Of a DNA stretch of 64,000 bases, positions 4,254 to 64,000 are shown piece after piece; within the stretch, counting starts at the first letter, position 1, and every line of letters begins with the position of its first letter. The stretch is from Aldrovandia affinis (lineage: Eukaryota; Chordata; Actinopteri; Notacanthiformes; Halosauridae), in NCBI GenBank assembly GCA_029706075.1, contig JAINUG010000325.1, positions 577,501 through 641,500 on the forward strand, in the 5' to 3' direction. The translations under genes were made by a program, and so were the position numbers. The notes under the pieces were generated by a model. That model searched no databases, was not told the DNA's origin, and saw nothing but the letters and a program-made list of their open reading frames with translations.

Positions 4254-6830
4254 ATGCAAAATAACTTTATATCAATTACAAGTTACAACTGCCATGGGCT
4301 AGCTGATTCTGTTCAAAGGAGATAAGTTTGGACTTGGCTTCATGTCAAAAGATCCTATATTATAATATGCTTACAGGAGACACATTCCATTTTAGAAAAC
4401 GAAACACTATGGAAGAATGAATGGAGGGGACCGATTTATTTTAGTCACAGCTCTAAGATTAAAAAGGTGGTTCTTATTTTGATAGAAAGTCATACTCATT
4501 TGGAAACTTTAATTCATTTGTTCATTCAGTTAATAATGACACAGAATGAAGATGATATTTCAATTGATTAAAATTTATTATTTTAAATTTGGACTTATAT
4601 ACTCTCCAAATAATGATGGTATAATATTTTTGAAGAGATAAGCTCAATTTTGAATGATAATTCTTGTAATGTATATCTTGTAGTAGTTGGGGATTTTAAC
4701 ACTGTATTAAATGTTGGTCTAGACTAGAGACTGGCCCAGTCAATATAACTATCACCCCAAAGCATTTAAAGCTTTATCTGAATGCATGGCCACACTAGAT
4801 CTGGTTGATATTTGGAGACTTAGGAATTAAAGAGATACAGTATACTGTACATGGCACAGGAATAAACAAGCAAGTAGGACTGACTACTTTCTTACCTCAT
4901 TTATTTAGTTGCTAGTGTATCACAAGCTAAAATCTTGGATCGGTTTAGGTCAGATCATGCTCTCATTATGTTACAATTGATCACTAGTGATTTTCCTAGA
5001 GGTAAAGGTTATTGGAAACTTAATCAACAGCTGTTAAATGATCACAGATTTATTGTGAATACAAGAAGTTTTCTCTTTACATATTTTCAAATAAATTAGG
5101 GCACAGCTGACACCCACATGGTTTGGGACCGATTTAAATGTGCTGTTAGAGGGCATGTCATAAAATGGTCATCATGGAAGAAAAAGAAACGCCTCCAAAA
5201 GGAGAGTAGGCTAACTGATGAGATAGAAAAATGGACACAGTATCTAATCCTCCAATGGCAATGCTTCTGTTATTAAAAGATAAACAAAATGAGTTGGAGA
5301 GGCTTCACACCGAAAAAGTTAATGCCATTATTCAGAGATCAAAGGCTATTTGGATGGAGAAAGGGGAAAAGTGTACAGCCTTTTTTCTTAGATTTAATAA
5401 TAGGAATGATCATTGGAAAAACCTAGTTAAATTGCTATCATCAGATAAATGTTATATAACTTCCCCCCAACAGATAGAACAAGAAAGTTATTTCAGAGAT
5501 ATTTTTTCTTTCAATCAGCAACCAACACCCTTGACAGAATTAGATTGTAGTAACTTCCTTCTAGATAATACTGTTAAATTAAATGAAATACAAAAAGCTA
5601 GTTGCAAGGGGCTAATATCATATATGTAAATTCATTCCAGACCGGAAAATCCCCTGGACTAGATGGGATTCCCATTGAATTCTATAAGACTTTCTTGGCA
5701 GAGATTAAAGGCCCACTTCGTGCTTCTTTTCAATTATTCTTACGTGCAAGGCGAATAGTCTCCCACACAGAGGGAGGAATTGATCTCTTTGTTATTGAAA
5801 CAGGACGCTAATGGACAAGACAAGGATCCTGTACATTAAAAAAATTGGAGACCTTTGACTTTATTATGCTGTGATACATGCATCCTATCCAAATGTCTGG
5901 CTCTAAGAATGAAGAAGGTGATTGGTCACATTGTACAAACAGAACAATCTGGTTTTATTGTCGGTAGATACATTGGGGATAATATTCAACATGTTTTAGA
6001 AACTATCGAAAACTACGAAAAAGGAATTAAAGGGGGGATTACTGTTTGTGGCTGACTTTGAGAAGGCCTTTGATAAAATAAGGTGGGATTACATCTACAG
6101 ATGTCTTCAAAATTTTAATTAGATTTTTCCTTTATTCAATGGTTTGAAGTCCTATATAAAAACCCCCGAAGCAAAGTAACGGACAATGGATATCTATCCG
6201 ACAGCTTTGAGTTGTTGCGGAGAGTTAGACAAGGTTGCCCTCTTTCACCGTATCTTTTTATTATTGCCATAGTGTTAGCTAATCGAATTAGAAATAACAA
6301 TAACATTTTAGGATTAAACATCAATGGATTTGAAACCAAAAATGCATTATATGCTGATGATACAATGTTTTTTATACAACCTAAACAAACATTACTGGCA
6401 GCTCTTATTGAAGACCTGAATTATTTTTCTCTAATATCCGGTTTGAGCCTAAACTACGATAAACACAATATCTTAAGGATAGGTACTCTAAAATACTCTA
6501 ATACGCAGCTGCTGTCTTCTGCTCCAGTAAGATGGAGTGAGGGTCCTGTGAATATACTTGGGATTACTATACCAAAAAAAATTTCTGAGTTGGTGAAAGT
6601 TAACTTCCACAAACAAATTCACAAAGATTGATAACAATACTTACAATACTGCTTGCTACACTTCCCGACAGAGTCCGAGAAGCGTACGAATACTATGACA
6701 GAAATACAAAGATATATATATATTTTTTAAAGAGACGCTGCCATGGCATGGGAAAGCACAGTCTCTTTATGGTAGAGTGACCCTAATTAACACCTTAGTT
6801 GTGTCTCAATTTGTCTATTTCTTTTTTAAA
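4254..6830 (+). pseudogene. L1-type ORF2 (endonuclease and reverse transcriptase), decayed
   Basis: It starts with an ATG at 4254 reading MQNNFISITSYNCHGL, the typical start of L1 apurinic endonuclease. IICLQETHS and VVGDFN follow in broken frames (about 4360-4700). Reverse transcriptase blocks lie at 5602-5811 (KSPGLDGIPIEFYK), 5855-6055 (QSGFIVGRYIGDNIQ) and 6212-6631 (RQGCPLSPYLF, then the catalytic YADD within NALYADDTMFF). Stops and frameshifts separate these blocks. The intact family protein nicks target DNA and primes reverse transcription; this copy cannot. Confidence 0.8.
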
Positions 6831-15061: not shown

Positions 15062-15751
15062 AGAAAAAAACTGCGGACTCTGTGGCCCACCAGGACCAGG
15101 GTTGAGGAACCCCCGGACAGGACAGGGGAAATAATAACAATAATTTTTTATGTTAAAACATCTATTTACATCCTCTTTATGTGATATGACATATAAAGGG
15201 GGTGAGCCTCAGAGTCTGCATTATTCAGTCCATGAGGCTAGGTTGCCGTTGTGAAGAAAGATGTAGAGCAAACATCCAAACACACATGCTCAGTGCGCAG
15301 CACTCCACTTTGCTGTTTTTCTTCTGGAGTTTCCCCCCAGGTGCTGATTCAAGAAAGAGAAAAAACATGTTTGTGTCCAAATTTGCCCCTTTTCCACCTC
15401 CAAATCCCTGTCCGCTCGTGTCAGTGAACTGAATTTCTTTTGGGGTGGATTTCCGAAAATGGAGACGCTGCCAGGGACATTCTGGTTCCACACTGAGCCC
15501 CTGTGGCTTTGCACGTGGCTTTCTGCTGGCTTCACTTCACAGACAATTGAGCTGGACCAAGAGGAGTCCAAGGCATGAAAAAGCCAGACTGACAGAGAAA
15601 ATGTTTCCAGTATTTTATAATTTTTTTCTGAACAATCTTGAGTGGGTTATTTTTCACACAATTTACAATAATTCCCATCATTGGGGGGAAGTAAAGAAAG
15701 TAAAGACTTGAATAAGGTTTATGATGAAGTACGTGGCATATGACCAATCAT
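15062..15751. repeat. Duplicated segment, copy 1
   Basis: From GCGGACTCTGTGGCCCACC to GCATATGACCAATCATTAA this stretch is nearly identical to 18509-19231. Shared features include a 76-codon identical open frame (15202-15432 and 18650-18880), which is probably not coding. The left part begins inside a palindromic MITE-like repeat whose full form is present only in copy 2, and the junction lies in a poly-A run. Confidence 0.85.
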
Positions 15752-16319
15752 TAATTTTTTGTAGTGCTCGTTTTATGAAAACTGTATTGTCTTTGTCTTA
15801 TATGCTGAAGATTTGGAGCTCTGTTGACATTTGAGGAGAAAGTGTGTTTGTCAAGCACAATTGGGCATTTTGACTCAACCGGCTGTTCCATTGTGACACA
15901 AATCCAAACTAATCACGCATCCTCCATGATGTTTTTTATAACTAAATGGTAACCAGCAGGAGATGTCGGCAGTAAGTTTGTATGTGGCATGCCTGGAACG
16001 TTTTTCTGTGACTTTGACATAACTTGTTAGGAACAGTAAGATTGTTCGGGGAATGTTGTCATAAAATGTTATCTTGCAGCCAAAGGTAAATCGAACCAGA
16101 ATCTCCCCAATGTTCTTGAAACATTTTGTGACTTTTCATCCGACGTTTATTTAAAATGAACAAAAAATGGAAGCACCAATGCAAAGTCACTTACACTTTG
16201 AGTATTTGAGAATTAAAACAAGCAAATTATATAGTTTTGCAGAAAGAGTTTTGTTATTGATACATAGCCTTTAAGTTTTGATCAGTGTGTCCAAAGTACT
16301 CGCTTTTGTGTGTAAACAA

Positions 16320-18351: not shown

Positions 18352-18558
18352 AGCAGGGCTCCTGGAGAACCACAGGGTATGCTGGATTTGTTGTCACTCA
18401 GCACTTTTGTCATCACCCTGCACTTAATCAATCAGTTAAAGCTATTCACTGCACAGTTAACTCACCTGACCTGGTTCCTTTGGTCTGAATTGGTGGATTG
18501 TTTTAAGGTGAAAAAAACAGCGGACTCTGTGGCCCACCAGGACCAGGGTTGAGGAACC
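18352..18558. mobile_element. Palindromic MITE-like repeat
   Basis: GGGCTCCTGGAGAACCACAGGGTATGCTGG at the left faces GGCCCACCAGGACCAGGGTTGAGGAACCCC at the right as imperfect inverted ends. Between them are AACTCACCTGACCTGG and a TCTGAATTGGTGG motif typical of a widespread fish MITE. Related sequence occurs near 46185-46340 and 53210-53380. Confidence 0.45.
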
Positions 18559-19231
18559 CCTGGACAGGACAGGGGAAATAATAACAACAAAAAATGTATG
18601 TTAAAACATCTATTTACATCCTCTTTATGTGATATGACATGTAAAGGGGGTGAGCCTCAGAGTCTGCATTATTCAGTCCATGAGGCTAGGTTGCCGTTGT
18701 GAAGAAAGATGTAGAGCAAACATCCAAACACACATGCTCAGTGCGCAGCACTCCACTTTGCTGTTTTTCTTCTGGAGTTTCCCCCCAGGTGCTGATTCAA
18801 GAAAGAGAAAAAATATGTTTGTGTCCAAATTTGCCCCTTTTCCACCTCCAAATCCCTGTCCGCTCGTGTCAGTGAACTGAATTTGTTTGTGGGTGGATTT
18901 CCGAAAATGGAGAGACGCTGCCAGGGGCATTCTGGTTCCTGTGTGTGGAGACAGTCAGGCTGAACACACTGAGTCCCTGTGGCTTTGCATGTGGCTTTCT
19001 GCTGGCTTCACTTCACAGACAATTGAGCTGGACCAAGAGGAGTCCAAGGCATGAAAAAGCCAGACTGACAGAGAAAATGTTTGCAATATTTAATAGGTTT
19101 TTTGTGAACAATCTGTTGAGTGGGTTATTTTTCACACAATTTACAATAATTCCCATCATTGGGGGAAAGTAAAGAAAGTAAAGACTTGAATAAGGTTTAT
19201 GATGAAGTACGTGGCATATGACCAATCATTA
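18509..19231. repeat. Duplicated segment, copy 2
   Basis: Near-identical to 15062-15751. It differs by scattered substitutions and by an insertion around 18940-18970 (GTGTGTGGAGACAGTCAGGCTGAACA). The left edge continues into a complete MITE-like repeat, so the duplication breakpoint lies inside that repeat. Confidence 0.85.
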
Positions 19232-20740
19232 AAGACAAGCCAATGTTTGTATTGTTTTAGTATTAAATATGGTGTCAAGAACTCGGTTAACAAATTAACA
19301 TGTCTGAGCATGCAAGCCTGAATATTAAACCTCTTCTGAAGCACATAATCTGAACAATTGTATTCCCACTTTCCAAAGGCAAATCCTCATAATGTAACGT
19401 AATGTTCAGCCTCAGCTATGGTACTCAGATGACAGTGTTTTTGACTAATGGTTTACAAGCCTATTTAAAACAGATTCATCACAGTGAGAGTTTCCTTTCT
19501 GCCTTCGTTAAAAAACCTTCTGAGAAATGGAGTGTGTTGAATGGAGGAATTTTAATTAAATTGAACACTGAACTGTGTAGATGAATGAACGTCAACAGTG
19601 GCTGCTCAGCACTAGTGATTTCTGTTGTTGTGTTTGGCAACAAAAAGAGGCCTTTTAAATCAGACAGTGTTTTGGCAGTTCCAGTGAATGAAACAGTTGG
19701 CACCAATTTGAAGGGTTTACGACTGTCAAAATGATGAAGAACCCAGGAGCTGTCAGAACTGGGCTCCGACTTTATTCAGCCTGGTAGTGTAACACATCAT
19801 GTTGTCTTTGTATCATAGACAATTATACATTCATTGACTTGGTATTTTGCCATGCATCACAATGCTTTCAGATTGTGTGCGTTTTGGTTATCACTGAAAA
19901 GTAAAACCAGTAGCACACACGTCTCGCATAGAGAAAGATTACCAGGCTCCCACAATAGGTTACCTACCCCATCGTACCTACACAGACCTGAGCTCCTTGA
20001 GGCAATCAAGGAGCGCCTAATTAACATGAAAACCGGGCATGGTGTGGTTAAGGGCAATCCCTGCCCTGTGAGCCTTTCACAGCCAGATGGAGACCAGGGA
20101 TCACCCGCCGGCTCCAAACAAATCAGAAGCAAAGCGAACACGCAGATCCGAATCGATAAATTAGTAAAAACAAAAAGGGATTCTCGCACAGGTATCAATA
20201 AATCAAAGAGGAGACAGATGGATGAGCTTGTTCTAGCAGCAAGGAGTACTGAGGTGACGGTGAACGATGAACGGCCTGGCGTGCTCTGGGCGATGTTCGT
20301 CCCTGCTCACTGTGGGAGGAAATGTGGCTAAAAGAATTACTCTGAAAACCCCGGGCCCTTCCATCTTCGTGTCAGACTGCATTTCACTGACATTCGTCCC
20401 CAGGAAAGGATTTTTACATTCGCCAACCGTCTTTAACAATACACAGGGGTGTCCTTACCATCTCAATCAGGGCGGAATAGTGAGAAGGAAAAGCCCATAA
20501 GGGCTTTTGAAATATGAAAATATGCAATTATTTAGATGATATTTGATAAGCTACATCCCAGGTTTTAAATATAGAAGGATGGGATTCATTCATACATTCA
20601 ACAGAGCTTCCAGACAAAATGTTTCTAAATTGGATAAGAACTTTTGTACTTGATACTTTTTTTTATAAGTGTCTATGATTCCTCTCATTTAATTTACAGT
20701 TGCTTGTGCTTTGTTTTATTTTTTGCTATTTTGCGGTATT
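19232..20740. other. Non-coding stretch, no gene recognised
   Basis: The open frames at 19834-20500 lack any recognised domain. There is no splice-bounded exon or RNA gene I can support. Confidence 0.5.
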
Positions 20741-38954: not shown

Positions 38955-39108
38955 ATTTTATTTTACTTGTGAACGTGCATCAACTCTCCAAACTCGGTAC
39001 GGGAAAACGACTGAAAACAAAAAGAGAACCGGAAGCAGCGTTCCTTACTGAGCCAGTTCTGAGGTGCTGCGCGGGTCTCAAAGAAAGCAGGAGAATCACA
39101 CGACCGCC

Positions 39109-39777
39109 ATGCCTGTCCGGATCACCTGCACCATCTCGTTCTCGACGGACGACGAGCCCGGGGGCGTGGCCTGCAGGGACGGTTTCGAGGACCGCTACAA
39201 GCGGGTCCTCCGGGCAGGGAGCTCGGGAGATGGGACGACCGGGCCCCTGGGGGACGAGAGCGACGACTTTGAAGTGTACGAGGAGGAGGACGCCAAACAG
39301 GTGGACGACCTGGCGACCTTCGTGGCGGGCTGCTCTCTACACGGGGCCAACCACGTGTTTGTGGAGGACAAGAAGTTTGGGGTGCGGCAGGGGCTGTGGG
39401 CCATCGTCTTCCTGCTGGCGCTCTCCATGTTCCTCCTGCAAGTGGTGGACCGCGTCATTTACTATCTGCAGTACGACCACATCACCATGCTGGACGAGAG
39501 GGTGGCCGACAAGATGATCTTCCCGGCCATCACCTTCTGCAACTATAACACCTTCCGCCGCTCCCAGCTGCGCTACAGCGACCTGCTGTTCATGGGGCCC
39601 CTGCTGGGCTACGAGGAGGACATGGCCCCTGGGATCCCACTGGCCCCTGAGCTCGACCGTCAGGGGAGGCCCTTTGGCCTGGACGAGTTCTTCAACCGCA
39701 CCCGCCACCGCATGGAGGACATGCTGCTGGACTGCAAATTCCGCACCACGGAGTGTGGCCCCGAGCACTTTCTAGAG
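39109..39777 (+). CDS. Acid-sensing ion channel, first coding exon (ASIC1b-type)
   Basis: This is the N-terminal exon of a proton-gated sodium channel of the ENaC/degenerin family, which acts at the plasma membrane as a trimer. The ATG at 39109 (context CCGCCATGC) opens 223 codons: MPVRITCTISFS start; acidic stretch 49-61; the conserved cytosolic His-Gly at 78-79 (SLHGANHVF); transmembrane helix 1 at about 95-112 (LWAIVFLLALSMFLLQVV); the post-TM1 FPAITFCN at 138-145; sequon NRT at 196-198; extracellular cysteines at 144, 209 and 216. It ends GAG|GTGAGC at 39777 in phase 0, just before where (V/I)FTRYGK is expected. The MPxxI start, LHGANHVFVE and PGIPLAP are closest to the alternative ASIC1b N-terminus of mammals. 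The exon is GC-rich against AT-rich flanks. The rest of the gene is not in view; paralogue identity is uncertain. Confidence 0.9.
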
Positions 39778-42070
39778 GTGAGCAGATTCCACGAAAATCA
39801 TACGTTGCGTGTCTGTGGCTCCACCCGTACCACCAGTACGAGGAAAACCAAGTCATGTGTGTTTATATTGCGTGTTTATTGGTTGTGTTTCCCCCCCCCC
39901 ACAATAATTTTTTTCAAAACACTCCTTTTGAACATTTCATTAGTGGACTGTAGGGTTGTCAATTTCATTTAAATTCAGTCAATTGTCAGTTGACAATTGT
40001 CAATTGAACAGTCAAGAAGGAAAATGAGGAATTCAATACATTCATTGAAAAGTCCAAGCACATATAAGACAATTGAATTTCAGTTCATTGACTGAATTGA
40101 AATGAAATGGAATGAACCCCAAATATATGTTCATATTGTATGTTTATAGTTTTTTTTCAGCCCTCCCATAACCCCCAGTCCACTGTTGATCACTTCATTA
40201 GTGAACTAGCAGGGCGAAATTGTTTCTCTGGCACTTTTTGACGGGACTATGGAAAGATGTGGAGGGACGATATCCATTCATTCTGTAGCTCTTATTGCTG
40301 TGTTTGGATTTGGAAGTGCTGCTGCAGACAGAAGGGTAGGTTTGCATTCTGTGCACAAAATGCCACAGAAAACAGACGGTATCAGTCAGTCTGACCAGAA
40401 TGCCAATTTCTTTATATGTTGACATTTCACCATGAAATGTATTGATCTCTGTGAAATGTGCCCAGTATTGAAAATGAGGAGAAAAAAAGCTGTGTATCGT
40501 TCTGACTAACAACTATATCCAGTTATTACTGTAATTGTTTTAATTGAACCACACAACTGGAGGGGTGTCCATTTCAGTGTAATTACCTGCAAATGAGACA
40601 CAGATTGTTCTATGGAAGTTGTCTATAAAAGCAGCTGATTGCGCCATTGGCCAAGCAGTCAATATTTGGACATTGGTAAGTCCAGACATACAGCCACAAA
40701 TCAGCAGGTCTAAAATCTGCCTCCTCTAATGTCTCGCTACCACAGTGACTGAGATCTGGTGATACATTCTGATGATGTAGTGTGCGTATTATAATGCATC
40801 CCAACCCTTGGAAGCACATATTCTAAAAAAACTCCTCATTCCACTTCTGGGCATAGACCCCGGAATAGTAGCTTGTAACTTGAGCACACACTCATCAAGA
40901 CCGTCCTTATGATACAAGAACTTTGGTCCAGCGTAAACCCTTAATTTAATTCTGGAATACGTTCTGTATTGTTTTTCAAATGTGTGAAAGGCTTTGACTG
41001 GCACAACGTACAGTTGAGGGCACTCTATATTTTCACAAAGAAATGTCACGGCGTCGGTAAGTGTGCTCGGCGCTGCGCTGTTCAAATCGCCGAATGCATC
41101 TTTCAGACCTTCCACTGGGAACGACCCTGATAAGATCGTGGGCTAAAGTAATGCCAGTGAGGGAATTCACCGAGAGACTACCCCATAAACGTATGACCAT
41201 GTCGCCAAGCGTAATTCATCGGCATCATACTTTGTATATGATGTTGATATTAGTAATGAAAGCGTACATTACACATGTCCTCATGTTAAAGTACGCTTGG
41301 GTTATGACATAAAGAAGAGATGGAGGGGACTCACCTTGGCTGGGTCGATACCAGCCTCTGGAGCCCATGAATGAGAGGGGGCTCAGCTTTCTCTTCCGGG
41401 ACAGAATATGAGCCCCCGGCTGTTCCTCCCACTTCCGTGTCTCCATTAGGCTCAGCTCTGATTTCATCAAATCCCAAGTCGCCCCTGTCATCTCAATTCT
41501 TGTCCCCTTCTGTTGCCTTCCCATGTGCCATGACAAAACAACTGAATCTCATTTCCTCTGATTTTGGTAAGATACACCGAATATATATTTTTTTTAATGA
41601 AGGTGCAGGGAAGGGGCATTCAAGGAAACTGCTGTATCCTTTAACTTCGAGTAGCCAGTTTAAGCCAATAGTATACTTTCCTGATTCTTGTACATGGTGG
41701 TCACTAAAGAAAGATTGTGCAAGGATGAAAAGTAATTTTGTTTAGTTAAAGAAAGAGCACTATGGCAACTGGCCCCGGCATTGAAAGAATTTGCTCAAAT
41801 TATATTCCAGCAGCCCCTCAATATTAGTTCATTTTTAATAACTTAAACACTGTTTTTGATTTCATTGAAACTTATACTTTAATTTGTGTACTAGTCTTGA
41901 TATATAACTGTAAAATAAGTCAGATGTCTGAGAACATACCAGAATGTTAAGCACTGGGGAACATCTGATATTCAAAAACCAGAGTATTTGTTCCGAATGG
42001 GAAACTTGGTGAGGATAATAGTGGACATTATATAGATTCACATTTACATTAGACTTCGTTACTGTAGTTG
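39778..42070. other. Intron-like region downstream of the ASIC exon
   Basis: It starts with the GTGAGC donor. A low-complexity tract rich in AATTGTCAATTGA/ATTCA words covers about 39955-40110. A possible spliced minus-strand frame is described separately (40840-41536). No ASIC exon 2 (FTRYGKCYTFN-like) was recognised. Confidence 0.5.
40840..41536 (-). other. Unrecognised possible two-exon minus-strand frame
   Basis: A frame from the ATG at 41536 (MSWHMGRQQKGTRIEM...SRGWYRPSQG) reaches a good donor, AAG|GTGAGT, near 41333. A second frame (about 41145 to 40840; EGLKDAFGDLNSAAPSTLTDAV, then CENIECPQLYVVPVKAFHTFEKQY) is preceded by a T-rich acceptor-like TTACTTTAG. I do not recognise a family. 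It could be a remnant of a transposon gene or chance. Confidence 0.25.
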
Positions 42071-42074
42071 TGTG

Positions 42075-42235
42075 AAGCAGCTGGGGGCAGTATTGAAGCA
42101 TGCTTTTATCCAAAACGACTTACGGAAATAAATGCTTAGAATTTTCAGTATACGTGGTCCCAATGGGAATCAAACCCACAACCTAAGCATTGTCAGCGCT
42201 ATGCTCTACCTACTGAGCCACACAGAACCATGATG
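42075..42235 (-). mobile_element. tRNA-derived SINE (minus strand)
   Basis: On the minus strand, TGGCTCAGTAGG (A box, 42220-42209) and GGTTTGATTCC (B box, 42176-42166) are followed by AAGCATTTATTTCCGTAAGTCGTTTTGGATAAAAGCATG, the conserved SINE/LINE tail. The order head-box-tail fits a HpaI/V-like fish SINE. It is not a functional tRNA gene: there is no cloverleaf closure and no CCA-proximal acceptor pairing. Confidence 0.75.
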
Positions 42236-48460: not shown

Positions 48461-48464
48461 ATAC
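48461..48464 (+). repeat. Target duplication ATAC, left copy
   Basis: ATAC immediately precedes the left LTR and recurs at 51892-51895 after the right LTR. Confidence 0.8.
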
Positions 48465-49085
48465 TGTGGCGTCCCCAAGGGTTGGGCGACACTCACTGAC
48501 CTTTCAGAGGGCGTAGGCAAGTGTAAGAACACTGAGGAGGCAGTAATATCAGCAGAAATTATGATTTATTAGACGAACACACACAAAACGCAGGGTGGGG
48601 TCTTTTGGGGAATACGAACACAAAGTCCACAATCCTTGTCTCTTTGTCGATGTCCGTTCCAAATCCAAAATCCAGGTCCAAGTTCCGTTGTCCAGTCCGT
48701 AATCCAATTCCAAGCAATCCAATCCAAACACAAAACAAACACACTTTCAAAACTCTCTCTCAAAAACTCTCTCCAAAAATACTCTAAAAAAATACTCTCC
48801 AAAAATCTCTCTCCAAAAATACTGGCTGGTCAATAGACTTCACAGTTATCTTTTTCTCTCTCTCACTCACCAACTCCTCACAACCACGTTCCTACTCCTC
48901 TCCAAGAACAATGGGCATCAGCCCTTTAAATAGGCCTCCAAAATGGCTTCCAGCTGGTCGTTTGTCCAATTTGCCGTGACTTCGTTCAGGTGTTGCGGTG
49001 GCATGCTGGGAAATGTAGTGAAAATGGCTGCCATGTGTTGGAGGCCAGGCAGCCATTTTGGGGTGCAACCCTTCGGGCCGCCACA
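48465..49085 (-). repeat. 3' LTR (left copy), 621 bp
   Basis: It reads TGTGGCGTCCCCAAGGG...CTTCGGGCCGCCACA on the + strand. On the transcribed minus strand the order is U3 (ZNF143-like and YY1-like motifs), TATTTAAA box (48932-48925), then AATAAA (48570-48565), as expected for U3-R-U5. By eye it differs from the right copy only near 48786 (CTCTAAAAAAA versus CTCTCAAAAAA). Confidence 0.92.
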
Positions 49086-49098
49086 CACCCTCCTCCTC
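49086..49098 (-). other. Polypurine tract candidate
   Basis: The minus strand reads GAGGAGGAGGGTG directly abutting the TGTGGCGG start of the 3' LTR. It overlaps the stop codon of the internal frame, so the reading frame fills the whole interior. Confidence 0.65.
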
Positions 49099-51259
49099 AG
49101 CTCTGACCTCGGGGAGGGCCGAGCGGCCTATGTCCAGCGGCCACCAGGAGGGTCCCCTCTCCAGGTCCACTCAGGAAGTGTCCCCCTGGGTCAAACGTCC
49201 AGAATCCCCAGTCTCCGGTTGCCTGAAAAAATGTCTGGCAGACATTAATGAGTGACGCAAGTTGCTCACCTTTTCTGCCACAAAATGGCCAACAGTGTGT
49301 ACAGGCTCTGGGCTCCATGGACGGAGCGGTCACCGCTCCTGTTCTGGTCTTCACCAGCCCCCATGGCTCCTCCGGTATACGTTGTGCCGTTCGAATCCAG
49401 TGTCCATGCTTCAGCCTTTTCCTCCACATCCCTTTTTCTTTCAGAGGGTCTGGTGGGGTAACTGGGGAAATCATGCTCTTCACAACACTGTTAATTCTCC
49501 CTTTGTCTTTCTTTTCCACATTTTTCTTCAAATCACCTTTCCATGGCCGCCTGTTTTGTTTCCCTTTTTTCTTAATGTGGGAGCTTCTGAACTCCCATTC
49601 TTTTCTCTGTCTGATTAATGTTAGTGAGGGAGATGGACTTACCACGTCAGGAGATGGTCGGGTGCTCAAACAGGCCTCGGCCTTAATTAGGAGGCCTTCC
49701 TCAACCCTATGGTCCCCCCATAGCTCCTCTAGGCCCCCTTGAAGGTCCGGCAGGCTGAGTGGGACTGAGGACCACTGTCCCCACCCCAATGTCTGGTCAT
49801 CATGTCCTCCCAGCTCCGCTGGCTGCGGGACCTCCACCTGCGTGCTAGCGTCTTGGGTGACAGGAACACACTTTACCCAGTCCAGCTCTTCACTCACCCC
49901 TTTCAGTCGGGCTTGTAGGTCCAGCACAGTCTCGGCTTGGACCTTCCATACTTCCCGAAATGCATTCTCTGCGGCCCGCTGCTGGGCTTCCATCTCCGCC
50001 ATTTTCCCCTGAAGCTGTGCGGACTGCTCCAGCTGCAGCTTCTGGACCTGCTCCTGGTGCTCCAGCGCACTCTTCTCCGCCGTCTCATCCGCCTCCTTGA
50101 GTCTGCGCTCGAACCATCCCCTTGGTTCCTCCATGGACTGGATTTGAGCCTGCAGCTCCTCCACCGTCTGCTGTAGGCTCTCCAGCTCCCGAGTGCGGGC
50201 CTTCTCGTTGCGGAGTTGTGAGCGGATCTCCTCCTCGGCGCGGTTCTTGTCCTCGTGCAGGCCGCGCAGCTCCTTCTCGTAGCGCGCCCGCCCGCCCAGC
50301 ACCTCCTTCTCGTGCTGCAGCCGCGCGTCGCTCAGCTCCTCCTTGTGCCGCGATTTCTCCTGCGCCACGTCAATGGCCAGCTCGTCCAGCATGGCCTGGC
50401 GCTTGTCCGCCGTCTTCCTGGTCTCCTCCAGCTCCTGCTGGAGTTTGTCCTTCTCTTGGCCCAGTTCAGTCAGCTGCTCCAGGAGCCGGCTGTTGGCGCG
50501 GTTTACCTCCTGCAGCTGGGAGCTGACGTCATCTCTCTGGGCCAGGAGCTTCTCCTGCTCGGTCTGCCTCTGCTGCAGCTCCACGTTCAGCGCCATTTCC
50601 TGCTCCACACTCTTCTCCAGCTGGGCCAGCTGCTCCCGCAGGGCGTTGGCCTCGACCTGGTGCATATCCCTGCTCTCCTGCTCCACTTGGCACCGGAGTT
50701 GCTCCGCCTCGGACGCATGGTTCTCCGCTGCTTTCCTTAGCTCTGCCTCCTTCTGGGCGAGCCTGGTCTGGGCATCCCCCAAGGCCCTGGCATACTCATC
50801 TGTGGCCCGGTCCTGGGACTCCTGCATGTCCAGACAATGTCGCTGCTCATCCTCACGCATCTGGGTTAGGGTTCTCACCTGCTCTTTGAGCGCCAGGTTG
50901 TGGGACTCGACACGCCTCATCTCATCGCCATGGGACGCCTTCTCCTTTTCTATCTCCGCACCCATGATTCTCACCACTCCCAGGGAGTCCATGTGGTGCT
51001 CCTCTCGCAACTTCATTACTGCCATCATGTGGCGCTCCTCTGAGGCGCTCACCTCCAACTTTGCCTTGCACAGCTCAAGCTGGGCACTCTGCTTCAGCTG
51101 TTGGACCTCACGGAGGGTGACACGCCATTGGTCCTCCACCATGGCTGCCCGTCTCTTCAGTCTCTGCATCTCTTCCATCGTGGAGTCTGTTGCACAAACC
51201 AAACATAAACCCTGCTGCACTACCTCCTCTTGCCTATCTGTGCTGCCCTCTGCCCGCAT
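49097..51259 (-). CDS. Retrotransposon-borne GRIPAP1 (GRASP-1)-like coiled-coil protein
   Basis: One intronless frame of 720 codons from the ATG at 51259 (inside the PBS) to TGA at 49099-49097. A better-placed start may be the ATG at 51178 (ACGATGG context, 693 codons). The frame is also open upstream into the LTR, but from a GTG only. Residue numbers below count from that upstream point (51298). About 41-475 is a near-continuous coiled coil. Within it, 237-405 follows GRIPAP1 closely: [74 protein letters not shown]. Similarity probably extends to about 165 and 450. GRIPAP1 is a host recycling-endosome scaffold that binds GRIP1 and Rab4. Residues about 480-733 are not GRIPAP1: a basic patch (574-600) and a Cys/His-containing stretch [12 protein letters not shown] (665-676) of unknown origin. 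The coding part is GC- and CpG-rich, unlike its flanks. No stop or frameshift. Whether protein is made is unknown. Confidence 0.85.
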
Positions 51260-51268
51260 TCTCCACCA
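51251..51268 (-). other. Primer binding site candidate (tRNA-Ala-like)
   Basis: Two bases after the 5' LTR, the minus strand reads TGGTGGAGAATGCGGGC. The first nine bases complement the ...UCUCCACCA 3' end of tRNA-Ala, and with one extra A the match continues into ATGC. The spacing and the leading TGG are what LTR elements use. Choice of tRNA is inference. Confidence 0.6.
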
Positions 51269-51806
51269 TATGTGGCGTCCCCAAGGGTTGGGCGACACTC
51301 ACTGACCTTTCAGAGGGCGTAGGCAAGTGTAAGAACACTGAGGAGGCAGTAATATCAGCAGAAATTATGATTTATTAGACGAACACACACAAAACGCAGG
51401 GTGGGGTCTTTTGGGGAATACGAACACAAAGTCCACAATCCTTGTCTCTTTGTCGATGTCCGTTCCAAATCCAAAATCCAGGTCCAAGTTCCGTTGTCCA
51501 GTCCGTAATCCAATTCCAAGCAATCCAATCCAAACACAAAACAAACACACTTTCAAAACTCTCTCTCAAAAACTCTCTCCAAAAATACTCTCAAAAAATA
51601 CTCTCCAAAAATCTCTCTCCAAAAATACTGGCTGGTCAATAGACTTCACAGTTATCTTTTTCTCTCTCTCACTCACCAACTCCTCACAACCACGTTCCTA
51701 CTCCTCTCCAAGAACAATGGGCATCAGCCCTTTAAATAGGCCTCCAAAATGGCTTCCAGCTGGTCGTTTGTCCAATTTGCCGTGACTTCGTTCAGGTGTT
51801 GCGGTG

Positions 51807-51826
51807 GCATGCTGGGAAATGTAGTG
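51807..51826 (-). promoter_or_regulatory. ZNF143/STAF-like site in U3 of the 5' LTR
   Basis: The minus strand reads ACTACATTTCCCAGCATGC, very close to the ZNF143 promoter motif ACTACAnTTCCCAGnATGC. It lies about 70-90 bp upstream of the TATTTAAA box in the transcribed direction. An identical copy is at 49001-49020 in the other LTR. Confidence 0.55.
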
Positions 51827-51838
51827 AAAATGGCTGCC
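51827..51838. promoter_or_regulatory. YY1-like site in U3 of the 5' LTR
   Basis: AAAATGGCTGCC on the + strand, with an inverted GCAGCCATTTTG about 20 bp away. The same pair occurs in the left LTR near 49021-49060. AAnATGGCnGCC is the YY1 core. Binding is not shown. Confidence 0.45.
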
Positions 51839-51891
51839 ATGTGTTGGAGGCCAGGCAGCCATTTTGGGGTGCAACCCTTCGGGCCGCCACA

Positions 51892-51895
51892 ATAC
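51892..51895 (+). repeat. Target duplication ATAC, right copy
   Basis: It matches 48461-48464 exactly. Confidence 0.8.
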
Positions 51896-52270
51896 ATTAA
51901 TTTAATTAATATAATAGTGAATATAATTGGCCTTTTGAAGAAAATATATCCAGACCCAGACAGCACCGAAAGCGCATAACCACTGCCGAGTATTCCATTA
52001 TTTAGACTTTACATTATTTATACTAGAACATTAGTCTGCGTGTCTTTTCTTGTATGACTTTACACGCTCATAGCAGCTGGCTCAAATTGAAACAGAATTC
52101 TGATGGACTGGCAGGTCAATATTTCTGCCTGACAAACTTGACAAATCCTACCTTACATCTCAAATGATAAGTCCCAAATGATTAGTTAGTGGTTTAAAGA
52201 ATTTTGGAAGATTTTCAGGCTCTAAGACATGTGAGGCTCATGTAAATGATTTCCCATCTGCTACGTACTA

Positions 52271-53045
52271 CACTATATGGCCAAAAGTCAGTGGACACCT
52301 GACCATCACGCCTATATGAGCTTGTTGGACATCCCATTCTAAAACCATGGGCATTAATATGGAGTTGGACCCCCCTTTGCGGCTACAATAACCCTTTTAA
52401 ATATAGTCAATTTTTCATTCACAGTTCTGCAATCTAGAGGTTTTACCCAATCTATATTACTTAAATTCTCTCTCATTTTATTAAAGTAAGCTCGTCTAAA
52501 ATTAAAAATTCGAGAGTTAGAGGAGGCTGTTTTAACTTGCCAAAAAATATAAAAAATAACTGCACTGTGGTCACTTGCCCCTATTGGTTCTCCTAACTCT
52601 GTGCTGCAAATTCTATCAGGATTGTTACACAAAACCAGATCCAGTATTGATTTCCCTCTCGTAGGCTGAGTAACAGACTGTACCAAAAAGCAGTCATTGA
52701 CCATATCTAAAAACTCCTCTTCACATTTGCCCTGACCTGTCACTATCTCCCAATTAATAGAGGGGTAATTGAAGTCGCCCATTATTATCGTCTCTCCTTC
52801 AGCACAGATTTGTTTTATGTTACCAAAGAGCGTACTATTTATGTTACTGTCTGAAGCTGGAGGTCTATAGCATACTCCTACAGTATATTAAGGCCCTTTA
52901 CGAACCATTCTGAATTCTAAATGTTTGTCTGTGGAGATTGCATGGCTATGTGCTGGATTTTATGCACCTGTTGGCAATGGGTGTGGCTGAAACACCTGAA
53001 CTCAATAATTAATAGGGGTGTCCACTGACTTTTGGCCATATAGTG
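52271..53045. mobile_element. Tc1-like derivative with TA flanks, split by a LINE fragment
   Basis: The left terminus CACTATATGGCCAAAAGTCA and right terminus TGACTTTTGGCCATATAGTG are near-perfect inverted repeats, with TA at 52269-52270 and 53046-53047. Tc1-type subterminal sequence (GTGGACACCTGACCATCACGCC; GGGGTGTCCACTGA) is present, but no transposase remains. About 52390-52920 is replaced by LINE sequence. Confidence 0.85.
52390..52905 (-). pseudogene. LINE endonuclease fragment (L2/CR1-like) inside the Tc1 derivative
   Basis: Minus strand: VGVCYRPPASDSNIN (about 52880), IIMGDFNYPSINWE (52780s), QPTRGKSILDLVLCN (about 52660) and GASDHSAVIF (about 52580). These are the conserved blocks GDFN and SDH of AP-like LINE endonucleases. 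The ends fall inside Tc1 sequence (GGAGTTGGACCCCCCTTTGCGGCTACAATA at the left). No reverse transcriptase part. Confidence 0.8.
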
Positions 53046-53047
53046 TA

Positions 53048-55894: not shown

Positions 55895-57438
55895 GTGAGA
55901 GTCACCAGCAAAGGAGAGAACCAATGGTGTGCATATCAGGAAGTAGACCCCAATGCATCTACCAAACCTCTATCGGAAGAGGGTCCGGTCAAAGAGGAAC
56001 TGGAAGATGTTGAGAGAGATTTGGTGGAATTGTTTCTGATGGAACACGAGGGGGAGCCCAAACCCACTTTCTTATCAAGCTGGTTCAGGACAGCGCAACT
56101 CGAGGATCCCAATCTGGCTAATGCTCTCCAACAGGTCATGGTCATCGACGGGAAACCCCTCGAGGGGGTAAGTCAAATTGTTTACTCTCACTTTGCGATA
56201 AAAAACAAATTATTATATCAAGTAATAACAAAGAACAATGAATGTATTGAGTTACTATTGGTGCCCAAACAGTATGTACAATCTATCCTTCATTTGGCAC
56301 ATGCTTATATCCTTGGTGCCTGTCTGGGGGTAGAAAAGACATTAGACAGGATACGAAGCTGGTTTCACTGGCCCAGAGTGAAGAAAGCTATTGAAGAGTT
56401 CTGCCACCATTGTCCCGAGTGCCAGTAGGTGGCACCGAGACCGCATTATCGCAGTCCCTTAATCCCCCTCCCAATAATCTCAGTTCCGTTCAGCCGAATT
56501 GCAATGGATCTTCTTGGCCCATTACCCAAGAGTTCCAGAGGGTACCAGTATATCTTAGTCATTGTGGATTACGTCACCAGATACCCTGAAGCCATTCCAC
56601 TGTGCACAATGGCCACCAAGGGAATCAGTGTCAGTGAGTTGACACTGTTATTTTCCCGAATGGGGAACAAGAACAAATATTGACTGATCACGCAACCCCA
56701 TTTACGTCCAGAATAATGAGAGACGTATGAATGAAACCCAACTACAAACCTCAGTATACCACCCACAGACAGATGGACTGGTGGAGAGGTTAAATCACAC
56801 GTTAAAACGTAATGGTGCTTAAAAACGTAATGGAGGCAGATGGGAAAAATTGAGACCAACTGTTGCCATATCTGATGTTTTCTATCAGGGAAGTTCTCCA
56901 GGCCTCAACCGGATTTTCACTGTTCAAGCTGCTGTTTGGGAGATGACCCCACGGACTGCTAGATGTGGCTAAAGAGGTGTGGGAACAGCAACCGTCCCCT
57001 CACTGAACCATGGTGGAACACATGGAGGAAATAAGAGATCGAATGGCAACTCCATGGCCCCAAGTACGTGAACACATACAGGAAGCGCAAAATGCTCAAG
57101 CTTGGGTGTATAACCGCAGAGCTCAGCAATGGGAATTCCAGAGAGGAGAAGACGTGTTGGTGCTAATCCCCAGCTCTGAATGTAAGTTCTTGGTTAAATG
57201 GTACAGACTCTACCAGATAATAGAGAAAGTGGGCCAAGTCAATTACAGGGTCCGACAACTGGGACGCCGAAATATAACCCAATTATATCATATAAATCTG
57301 TTGAAACGGGGCAATGCACGTGAAATACTGTATACCATTGTCCCCAAGATATCTGTTACAGAGATCATGCCTGCCCCCACTGGGGGAGCAACTGAGCCAG
57401 ACCCAGACACAAGACATGCGGGAATTGATAAACAGTAA
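55895..57438 (+). pseudogene. Gypsy-type integrase, broken
   Basis: The H-H-C-C zinc-binding domain is at about 56290-56428 (HLAHAYILGACLGVEKTLDRI, CHHCPECQ), ending at a stop. The core starts at 56429 (AMDLLGPLP, GYQYILVIVDYVTRYPEAIPL), so the first catalytic Asp is present, and then shifts frame after about 56660. TDGLVERLNHTLK-like text (about 56770-56805) is the third core block. The C-terminal domain is at 57010-57438 (RGEDVLVLIPS, HINLLKR). Non-functional because of stops and frameshifts. Confidence 0.8.
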
Positions 57439-58245
57439 CCAGGATGTGTTCTGGTCACACAAACCTTATCCAACACAGCATAATTACCACCCCAGGCGAA
57501 AAGGTAAAGTTACGGCCATATCGCATGCCCGCAGCAAGAAGAGAAGCTATTCGAGTAGAGGTAAAAAATATATACTGGACGCAGGCATCATAAAAACTGC
57601 GTTTGCCACCCCAGAGGGATTGTTTCAGTACAGAAAACTGCCATTCGGCAGTATGAACGTTTGTGGGACTAAGCAGTTATTATAGAAGATTTATACCTAA
57701 CTTTACTTCTCTAGCCAGCCCCCTTACAGATCTAACCAAGAGTCATCTGCTGGACCGGGTAGAGTGGACAGACAGGACAGAAAAAGCATTTCAGGACTTG
57801 AAGAGGTCACTGTGCTCAGGACCCGTGCTGGTGACTCCGGATTTCAATAAAACCTTAATAGTACAAACCAACGCATCAGTAACCAGGGTGGGTGCCGTTC
57901 TGTCCCAGCTACAAGAGGGGGAGGAACACCCAATCAGCAGAAAACTGTTACCTCAAGAACAAAAATACTCAACAGTAGAAAAAGAGTGTCTAGCGATCAA
58001 GTGGGCACTTGAGACTTTGCTGTACTATCTGTTGGGATGGTATTTCACCCTGGTAACGGATCATGCACCACTAGTTTGGATGGCACAAAACAAGGACAGT
58101 AATGCCCGGGTCACGCGGTGGTTTTATCGTTACAACCATTTGCTTTCTCTGTCCTACACAGGTCCGGGGCTGCCCATGGGAATGCCGACGCTCTCTCCAG
58201 GAGGGACGCACTATGGTGTCAGACCTCCCGGTCGGAGCTAAGGGT
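57430..58245 (+). pseudogene. Gypsy-type RT remnant and RNase H, broken
   Basis: Only the end of RT is present: EGLFQYRKLPFGSMNV near 57614-57660, with no catalytic YxDD block visible. RNase H follows at 57663-58241: GLSSYYRRFIPNFTSLASPLTDLT, then VTPDFNKTLIVQTNAS (the usual D of TDAS changed to N), QEQKYSTVEKECLAIKWALE and TDHAPLVWM. Most of the RT has been deleted, consistent with the short gap between the integrase end and this block. Confidence 0.8.
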
Positions 58246-62378: not shown

Positions 62379-62975
62379 ATGTGCCAGTATGCAGCGGTGC
62401 CAAGGGGGAGAACTTCCCTTGCAGAAGCTGGGAAGCTCTTCTTAAAACACACTACCTTCCATGGTCTGCGGCACGTTTTTCTGGCTGGATCGTACCCGCG
62501 GAGACTGGCGTGGCTGCTGGCTTTTTTGACGGCTCTCGCTCTCCTGCTCACCTGGTCCACCAACCGGGTGCGGTACTTGCTGTCCTCACCTGTTCACACA
62601 AAGGCGCATGTGGTCTATGCCAAGCGGCTTGTATTCCCCGCAGTCACCATCTGCAACCAGAATCTCCTGTTGCCGAGGCGCATGAAGAAGCCGGACATTT
62701 TTAGCGCTGGAAGGTGGCTAGGACTCTTAGGAAGAAACTGGCAGGTGTCTGCTGGGGCCAGAGAGGCACTTTCTAACGGTGGCGACAGCGTCAGCAACGA
62801 GTCGCCCTGGTCCCCACTTTCCCGCATACTGGACTTCAACCACTTTCTTCCGCCGCCCCACGAATCGCAGCCCTCGATGAAGCAGTTGCTGGAGCGGCTC
62901 GGACACCAGCTAGAGGAAATGCTACTACACTGCCGTTTCCGGGGAGAGCAATGTGGGCCCCGGAACTTCACTACC
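62379..62975 (+). CDS. asic2: Acid-sensing ion channel, first coding exon (ASIC2b-type)
   Basis: This is the N-terminal exon of an ENaC/degenerin-family, proton-gated channel subunit. The ATG at 62379 (AAAATGT) follows an in-frame TGA at 62346-62348, so it is the first available start. The exon has 199 codons. His-Gly of the cytosolic gating motif at 28-29 (TTFHGLRHVF); TM1 at about 43-61 (LAWLLAFLTALALLLTWST); FPAVTICN at 86-93; GRWLGLL at 111-117; FLPPPH at 156-161; LGHQLEEMLLHCRFRGEQCGPRNF at 174-197 with Cys 185 and 192. It ends ACC|GTGAGT at 62975 in phase 0, where VFTKYGK is expected to follow. The words HGLRH, TWSTNR, GRWLGLL, FLPP and LGHQLEEMLL are those of the ASIC2b alternative N-terminus. 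In mammals ASIC2b gives little proton current alone and modulates partners. Shared exons are not in the window. Confidence 0.88.
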
Positions 62976-64000
62976 GTGAGTGTCTGGAAAGCGCACAAAT
63001 GAACTGCAATCACTAGGCCATTGTGACAGAGCAACATGACACTTTTGTCCATGAGATTAACCTTGCAACAAGTTAGTTAGGTTAGTTAGTTGTTGCAAGG
63101 TTAGTCTCTGAGACCTCTACAACAAGCAGTTGCATAAACAAATTGATGACGTTTCAGTGACCATGACACCAACTTCAGTCTTTTTTATTTATTTTAAGAA
63201 TGACATATATACAACCTAATTACATCTCTGTCTCAGTTTCAGCTTTGAACTTGAGGAGGCAAAGCAATGTGTTTATAATTCAGCCTTTCCGTTTCATTTG
63301 CAAACATGTATCCAAAGTAATCAGCTTGAGTACTGGATAAATTAGCCATGGCAGTCAATCTAGCCATAACTGAAGCTTGTTTGTTTTTCAGTGACTGGGC
63401 GCACGACGCTCCCTGAAAACTCCCACAGATACTGAGAGGCCAGGCCAGCTGTCAGGGGAATGTGCATGGATGACCATTTGTTAAAGTAATATTCATGGCA
63501 GTCTGTGGAAATATTCTACTGTTTGAGCTGTGGGTTCATAGATACAACATTTGTTCTAGGTTGAATATTTTTGGTATAAAAACATATATATTGAAGCCAG
63601 TTTGGGAGTCAAATGAAAGGAAATGGAAGGATCCGATCCTTTTTATTTTTCAATGTAGTACATTTTAAATACACATACATTATGAAAACAAAAATGCCCA
63701 CCAAGCTGTCATGGTGCTTAATTTATAAAGGGCCTTGCTATCCTTAAAATGACTAAAAGAGGCTGGAATGGTTGGTGTGAATCATGTCATGGTAGAATAG
63801 TCATGGAATAAGAGGGTAAATATTATATTTTTTTTCTGTATTGTAGCCTACTTACAGAGCAGGCCAGCTCACACTCCTGGGGAAACAATTATAATGCGAT
63901 AGCATGGTCTGCACTCAGAATTGCCTGCCTCCGAATTCTTAGTAGCCTACTGTAGCACTAGTAGCCGTTACTGTACTGTCTATGAACAATATCATTTTTT
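62976..64000. other. Intron-like region after the ASIC2b-type exon
   Basis: It begins with the GTGAGT donor. A short inverted motif (TTAACCTTGCAACAA / TTGTTGCAAGGTTAG) lies at about 63058-63104. No further exon is seen to the window end. Confidence 0.5.

Follow-up and report, generated by a model that had tools for sequence, protein, structure and literature searches.

An LTR element with a single open frame

The window (the whole 64-kb stretch of DNA that was analysed) holds on its minus strand a complete LTR element of 3,427 bp, at 48465-51891, exactly where a sequence-only reading of the same DNA had placed an LTR retrotransposon (Table 1). All four structural features of such an element are present, namely LTRs, a target-site duplication (ATAC), a primer-binding site and a polypurine tract. 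The LTRs are direct repeats with TG...CA termini (TGTGGCG...CCGCCACA), and the duplication, at 4 bp, falls within the 4 to 6 bp expected of LTR retrotransposons. The single difference per 621 bp between the two LTRs points to, and leads us to infer, a recent insertion. The primer-binding site is complementary at 18 of 18 positions to the 3' end of tRNA-Ala(AGC), CCA included; the vertebrate tRNA sequence used for this match, presumably correct, is identified by ARAGORN as tRNA-Ala (agc). The first 12 bases of the site have no second occurrence on either strand of the window, and tRNA-Ala primer sites in fish LTR elements were not found in the open-licence literature. No further copy of the element or of its frame was detected in the 64-kb window by blastn and tblastn.

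Table 1. Positions of the parts of the LTR element, in window coordinates
Feature	Position	Strand	Basis or remark
Target-site duplication ATAC, left copy	48461..48464	.	sequence comparison
3' LTR	48465..49085	-	621 bp
Polypurine tract GAGGAGGAGGG	49088..49098	-	read from sequence; 2 nt before 3' LTR
Open reading frame, 720 aa + stop	49097..51259	-	spans the interior
Basic stretch, residues 546-625	49385..49624	-	residue count
Predicted helical, coiled-coil-like part, residues 28-436	49952..51178	-	single-sequence AlphaFold2
GRIPAP1-like segment	50084..50590	-	frame residues 224-392, corresponding roughly to human GRIPAP1 366-534 (numbering of the working sequence)
Primer-binding site, 18 nt	51251..51268	-	2 nt inside 5' LTR
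5' LTR	51271..51891	-	621 bp; 620/621 identical to 3' LTR
AATAAA	51371-51376	-	LTR position 516
TATA-like box TATTTAAA	51731-51738	-	LTR position 154
Target-site duplication ATAC, right copy	51892..51895	.	sequence comparison

The interior had been described as one 720-codon frame without gag and pol, and it is indeed occupied by an intact frame of that length, which spans it from end to end: its first ATG falls within the primer-binding site and its stop codon overlaps the polypurine tract. The frame runs in the same sense as the transcription signals of the LTR, in agreement with the direction previously read from the primer site, the purine tract, the TATA-like box and AATAAA. Pfam searches returned no family, whether gag, pol or env, in the 720-residue frame (E 0.1), none in its tail (E 1), and none in the nine further interior frames searched (61-320 aa, E 1), so that the gag and pol of an autonomous LTR retrotransposon were found by Pfam in none of the interior frames. 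As to the superfamily (Ty3/gypsy, copia, BEL or ERV), pol was not found and the 4-bp duplication alone is not decisive. Pattern searches for relatives gave 20 matches in viral contigs and 38 in prokaryote genomes, none of which was confirmed. An antisense frame at 50343-51305 (plus strand) matched no Pfam family and was judged to be a by-product of E/Q/L-rich codons.

Openness of the frame and signals of translation

The longest stop-free run of the interior, 723 codons, exceeds the maxima reached in simulations of order 1 (490 codons, n = 1000) and order 2 (603 codons, n = 1000). Examined by parts in 4000 simulations of each order (order 1 and order 2, respectively), residues 1-236 were open in 2 and 5, residues 206-430 in 30 and 253, and residues 431-720 and 521-720 in none of either. 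The frame is thus open beyond what composition provides on both sides of the GRIPAP1-like piece. Residues 1-430 show a clear three-base periodicity, which weakens in 431-520 (p 0.00025) and is not detected in 521-620 (p 0.69) or 621-720 (p 0.88), nor in four stretches taken as controls, namely the LTR and three flanks; its absence from residues 521-720 speaks against long-standing coding selection there.

If transcription is presumed to start 30 bases past the initial base of the TATA-like box, the leader ahead of the frame is 449 nt long and contains a single ATG, when order-1 simulations have a mean of 8.2 (probability of one or fewer, 0.002). Among the early in-frame ATGs, graded by the start-context rule, codon 28 (51178) has the best context, a strong one (ACGATGG). 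The unlikely openness of the frame and the paucity of ATGs in the leader are what would be expected if the protein were made and selected; selection in favour of an ancestral gag may also have left the leader poor in ATGs.

A GRIPAP1-like segment in the middle of the frame

The frame was compared with human GRIPAP1, for which we used a working sequence of 841 aa, presumably correct, rather than a database entry. Over the core, residues 224-392, 120 of 169 positions are identical in an ungapped alignment (71%). BLASTP extends the match to frame residues 181-388 against 306-530 of the working human sequence (135/225 identical, E 4e-68), with 17 gap positions, all of them left of residue 224. Windows of 20 residues hold 9-17 identities within the core, 1-2 to its left and 2-5 to its right. 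As had been claimed, no introns interrupt the match, which is also co-linear and in the sense orientation. Its limits had been set at residues 237-405, which is nearly right, the ungapped likeness running from about residue 220 to 395. With shuffles that keep the heptad phase, the local score of residues 205-430 against the working GRIPAP1 sequence was 668, and the highest of 300 shuffles reached 161.

As a small independent check, the working sequence contains LSEKLK, which is one reading frame of the knock-down target GCTCTCTGAGAAATTGAAA given in PMC2808209, where GRIPAP1 has 837 residues. No Pfam family matched the working GRIPAP1 sequence, and the silence of Pfam on the frame therefore says nothing for or against this origin. 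In a PDB sequence search the working sequence gave one match, an MLV-related Env chain at E 0.3, which is not meaningful.

On sequence similarity we can confidently assign to GRIPAP1 about 170 codons of its central coiled coil, that is, about a quarter of the frame. The captured gene that had been proposed is therefore to be read as a fragment within a longer frame of 720 codons: the GRIPAP1 segment stands, the whole gene does not. This bears on what the protein might do. According to PMC2808209, the truncated forms of GRIPAP1 that were assayed bound Rab4 only with aa 280-300 present, the full-length protein without them still bound Rab4 in part, the C-terminal region was needed for binding syntaxin 13, and both ends were required for endosomal location. 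The Rab4-requiring stretch and the syntaxin 13 region lie outside the BLASTP match (306-530 of the working human sequence), and only an alignment with softer gap costs passes, weakly, through human 280-300. Because the confident match covers neither binding region, it is unlikely that the protein of the element acts at endosomes.

The remainder of the frame

The softer-gap alignment is co-linear over frame residues 39-453 and human 197-594 (working sequence), with low identity outside the core. Scored separately against the working GRIPAP1 sequence, residues 28-205 (score 111, reached by 3 of 300 shuffles) and 100-205 (score 86, reached by 2 of 300) find stretches that are not co-linear, and several other parts are at shuffle level: residues 1-100 (79/300), 391-470 (78/300), 391-440 (41/300) and, with full shuffles, 440-720 (50/300). 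The flanks of the core may derive from GRIPAP1 and have diverged, or may have another source.

In single-sequence AlphaFold2 predictions, residues 28-436 form three long helices (mean pLDDT 77.4, pTM 0.28) and no fold is seen for residues 437-720 (mean pLDDT 36.3, which is uninformative). Residues 546-625 carry a net charge of +18, with 25 K/R and 7 D/E among 80 residues. Database searches with the frame returned five weak coiled-coil matches in the PDB, the best to a keratin at E 0.085, and one SMC match in NCBIfam at E 0.037, far below its cut-off. A Pfam match of residues 28-220 to NodS (E 0.048) was below its cut-off and was rejected as not meaningful.

The predicted coiled coil of residues 28-436 might serve as an oligomerising rod and the tail of residues 546-625 might bind nucleic acid, the two jointly filling a role like that of Gag or of LINE ORF1. 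We regard this proposal as improbable. Under it, the frame protein would gather the element's RNA for the enzymes of a partner element, with the captured GRIPAP1 coiled coil as a working part. Should the protein be produced and be of use to the element, a host coiled coil would have been recruited as a substitute assembly protein.

Origin of the element

Between the LTRs lies an intronless, same-sense segment homologous to the working human GRIPAP1 sequence, and viral genes were not found; these properties fit the capture of an mRNA by template switching. The explanation that we consider probable is a non-autonomous LTR retrotransposon, in a vertebrate and probably fish genome, that gained a segment of GRIPAP1 mRNA in this way and was moved in trans. 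GRIPAP1 mRNA would have been packaged into a particle together with the RNA of an LTR element, and template switching during copying would then, most likely, have brought the GRIPAP1 segment in, with gag and pol lost in exchange. The resulting frame would consist of a coiled coil, the central coiled-coil segment of GRIPAP1 and a basic tail. Transcription of the element would start from its LTR, its reverse transcription would be primed by tRNA-Ala, and copying and integration would depend on the proteins of an autonomous partner. The anatomy, the near-identical LTRs, the open frame and the similarity to the working GRIPAP1 sequence are observed; template switching, mobilisation in trans, transcription, translation and the recent age are inferred.

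A different outcome of the same capture route is a one-off, LTR-flanked retrocopy, in which a chimeric cDNA integrated once, was never propagated and has a functionless frame; this differs from a mobile element in propagation and function. The LTRs of a single event would be near-identical by construction, as here (620/621), only one copy is seen in the 64-kb window, and residues 521-720 have no three-base periodicity. Such an accident does not, however, account well for a frame that is open beyond composition on either side of the GRIPAP1 piece and takes up the whole interior between primer site and purine tract; moreover, by reasoning, a random fragment placed in coding sequence would stay in frame on both sides only about one time in nine. 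We therefore consider a one-off retrocopy rather unlikely.

It could also be argued that the interior represents the gag coiled coil usual in an LTR family and that its likeness to GRIPAP1 is of the generic kind shared by coiled coils, since both proteins are E/Q/L-rich and since residues 28-205 and 100-205, compared with GRIPAP1 stretches that are not co-linear, score a little higher than shuffles do. This is very hard to reconcile with an ungapped identity of 71% over 169 residues to the working GRIPAP1 sequence, with a score several times the shuffle maximum, and with the lack of any Pfam gag family in the frame. If the working GRIPAP1 sequence is right, the sequence comparison refutes a gag origin for the core segment; residues 1-205 and 440-720 may have such an origin. 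The intact frame would agree with all or part of the chromosomal gripap1 gene, or with a domesticated gene under the control of an LTR. Either reading is scarcely credible for an intronless frame that is set exactly between two LTRs with a target duplication and that can be assigned to GRIPAP1 with confidence over no more than about a quarter of its length.

Relation to known cases of capture

The uptake of a host mRNA by an LTR element is a kind of event already known, and the GRIPAP1 element, in the reading that we prefer, is a further case. Maize Bs1 is a short, non-autonomous element. Like the element described here, it is an LTR element whose interior holds cellular gene segments joined in a chimeric gene (PMC13317346 and PMC5408686); it differs in being from a plant and in having captured three genes (a membrane ATPase, a xylan endohydrolase and a glucanase), whereas the GRIPAP1 element is from a vertebrate and has one recognised host segment. 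Captures by LTR elements have also been counted across plant genomes, in a survey that attributes 672 genes in rice and 1,343 in sorghum to them (PMC3726574).

In vertebrates, the capture of host mRNA by LTR elements is relatively uncommon according to PMC4299795, which describes crocodilian ERVs that carry captured host mRNA in frames that are open and under purifying selection. CrocERV29 carries KIT-ligand and has lost no ERV domain, and in CrocERV31 nectin3, a whole host protein, replaces env and is present in six insertions (PMC4299795). By comparison, the GRIPAP1 element yielded no viral domain, and what can be recognised of a host gene in it is a fragment. In the LTR-mediated retroposition of metazoans, retrocopies arise when the template is switched between the RNA of an LTR element and a host mRNA; PMC5408686 reports this in summarising Tan et al. 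2016, states that mosquito, zebrafish and chicken use both LTR and non-LTR routes of retroposition, and describes how such switching captures mRNA within the particles of LTR elements. No element with GRIPAP1 as cargo was found in the open-licence literature, as judged from titles and the beginnings of abstracts, and six peptide strings were not found there either. A recent capture whose frame is still open would make the capture route, the partner that mobilises in trans and any selection on captured coding sequence testable, by comparing copies of the element with chromosomal gripap1.

Other features of the window

Ty3/gypsy-like pieces occupy 55895-58241 of the window (plus strand), with Integrase_H2C2, an integrase C-terminal domain and, downstream, RT_RNaseH (Pfam), an order which implies either that the usual one was rearranged or that two elements lie together; at the sensitivity of blastn and tblastn these pieces (55.9-58.2 kb) have no similarity to the GRIPAP1-carrying element. 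At 52269-53047, perfect inverted repeats of 31 bp, separated by 717 bp, delimit a transposon-like unit, and between them a frame at 52354-52782 matches Exo_endo_phos_2, a LINE-type endonuclease (Pfam). A reverse-transcriptase fragment at 6212-6631 (RVT_1, E 4.9e-10) is probably of LINE type. ARAGORN, with the bacterial code, reports a tRNA-Val (gac) at 42154-42229, which may be the head of a SINE rather than a tRNA gene. Two directly repeated copies of roughly 0.7 kb, with 92.7% identity, lie at 15063-15754 and 18510-19232. Two frames of the ASC family (amiloride-sensitive/acid-sensing channel), at 39064-39972 (E 1.5e-21) and 62379-63002 (E 3.7e-25) by Pfam, both match the start of the profile, lie on the same strand about 23 kb apart, and could be a tandem gene pair.
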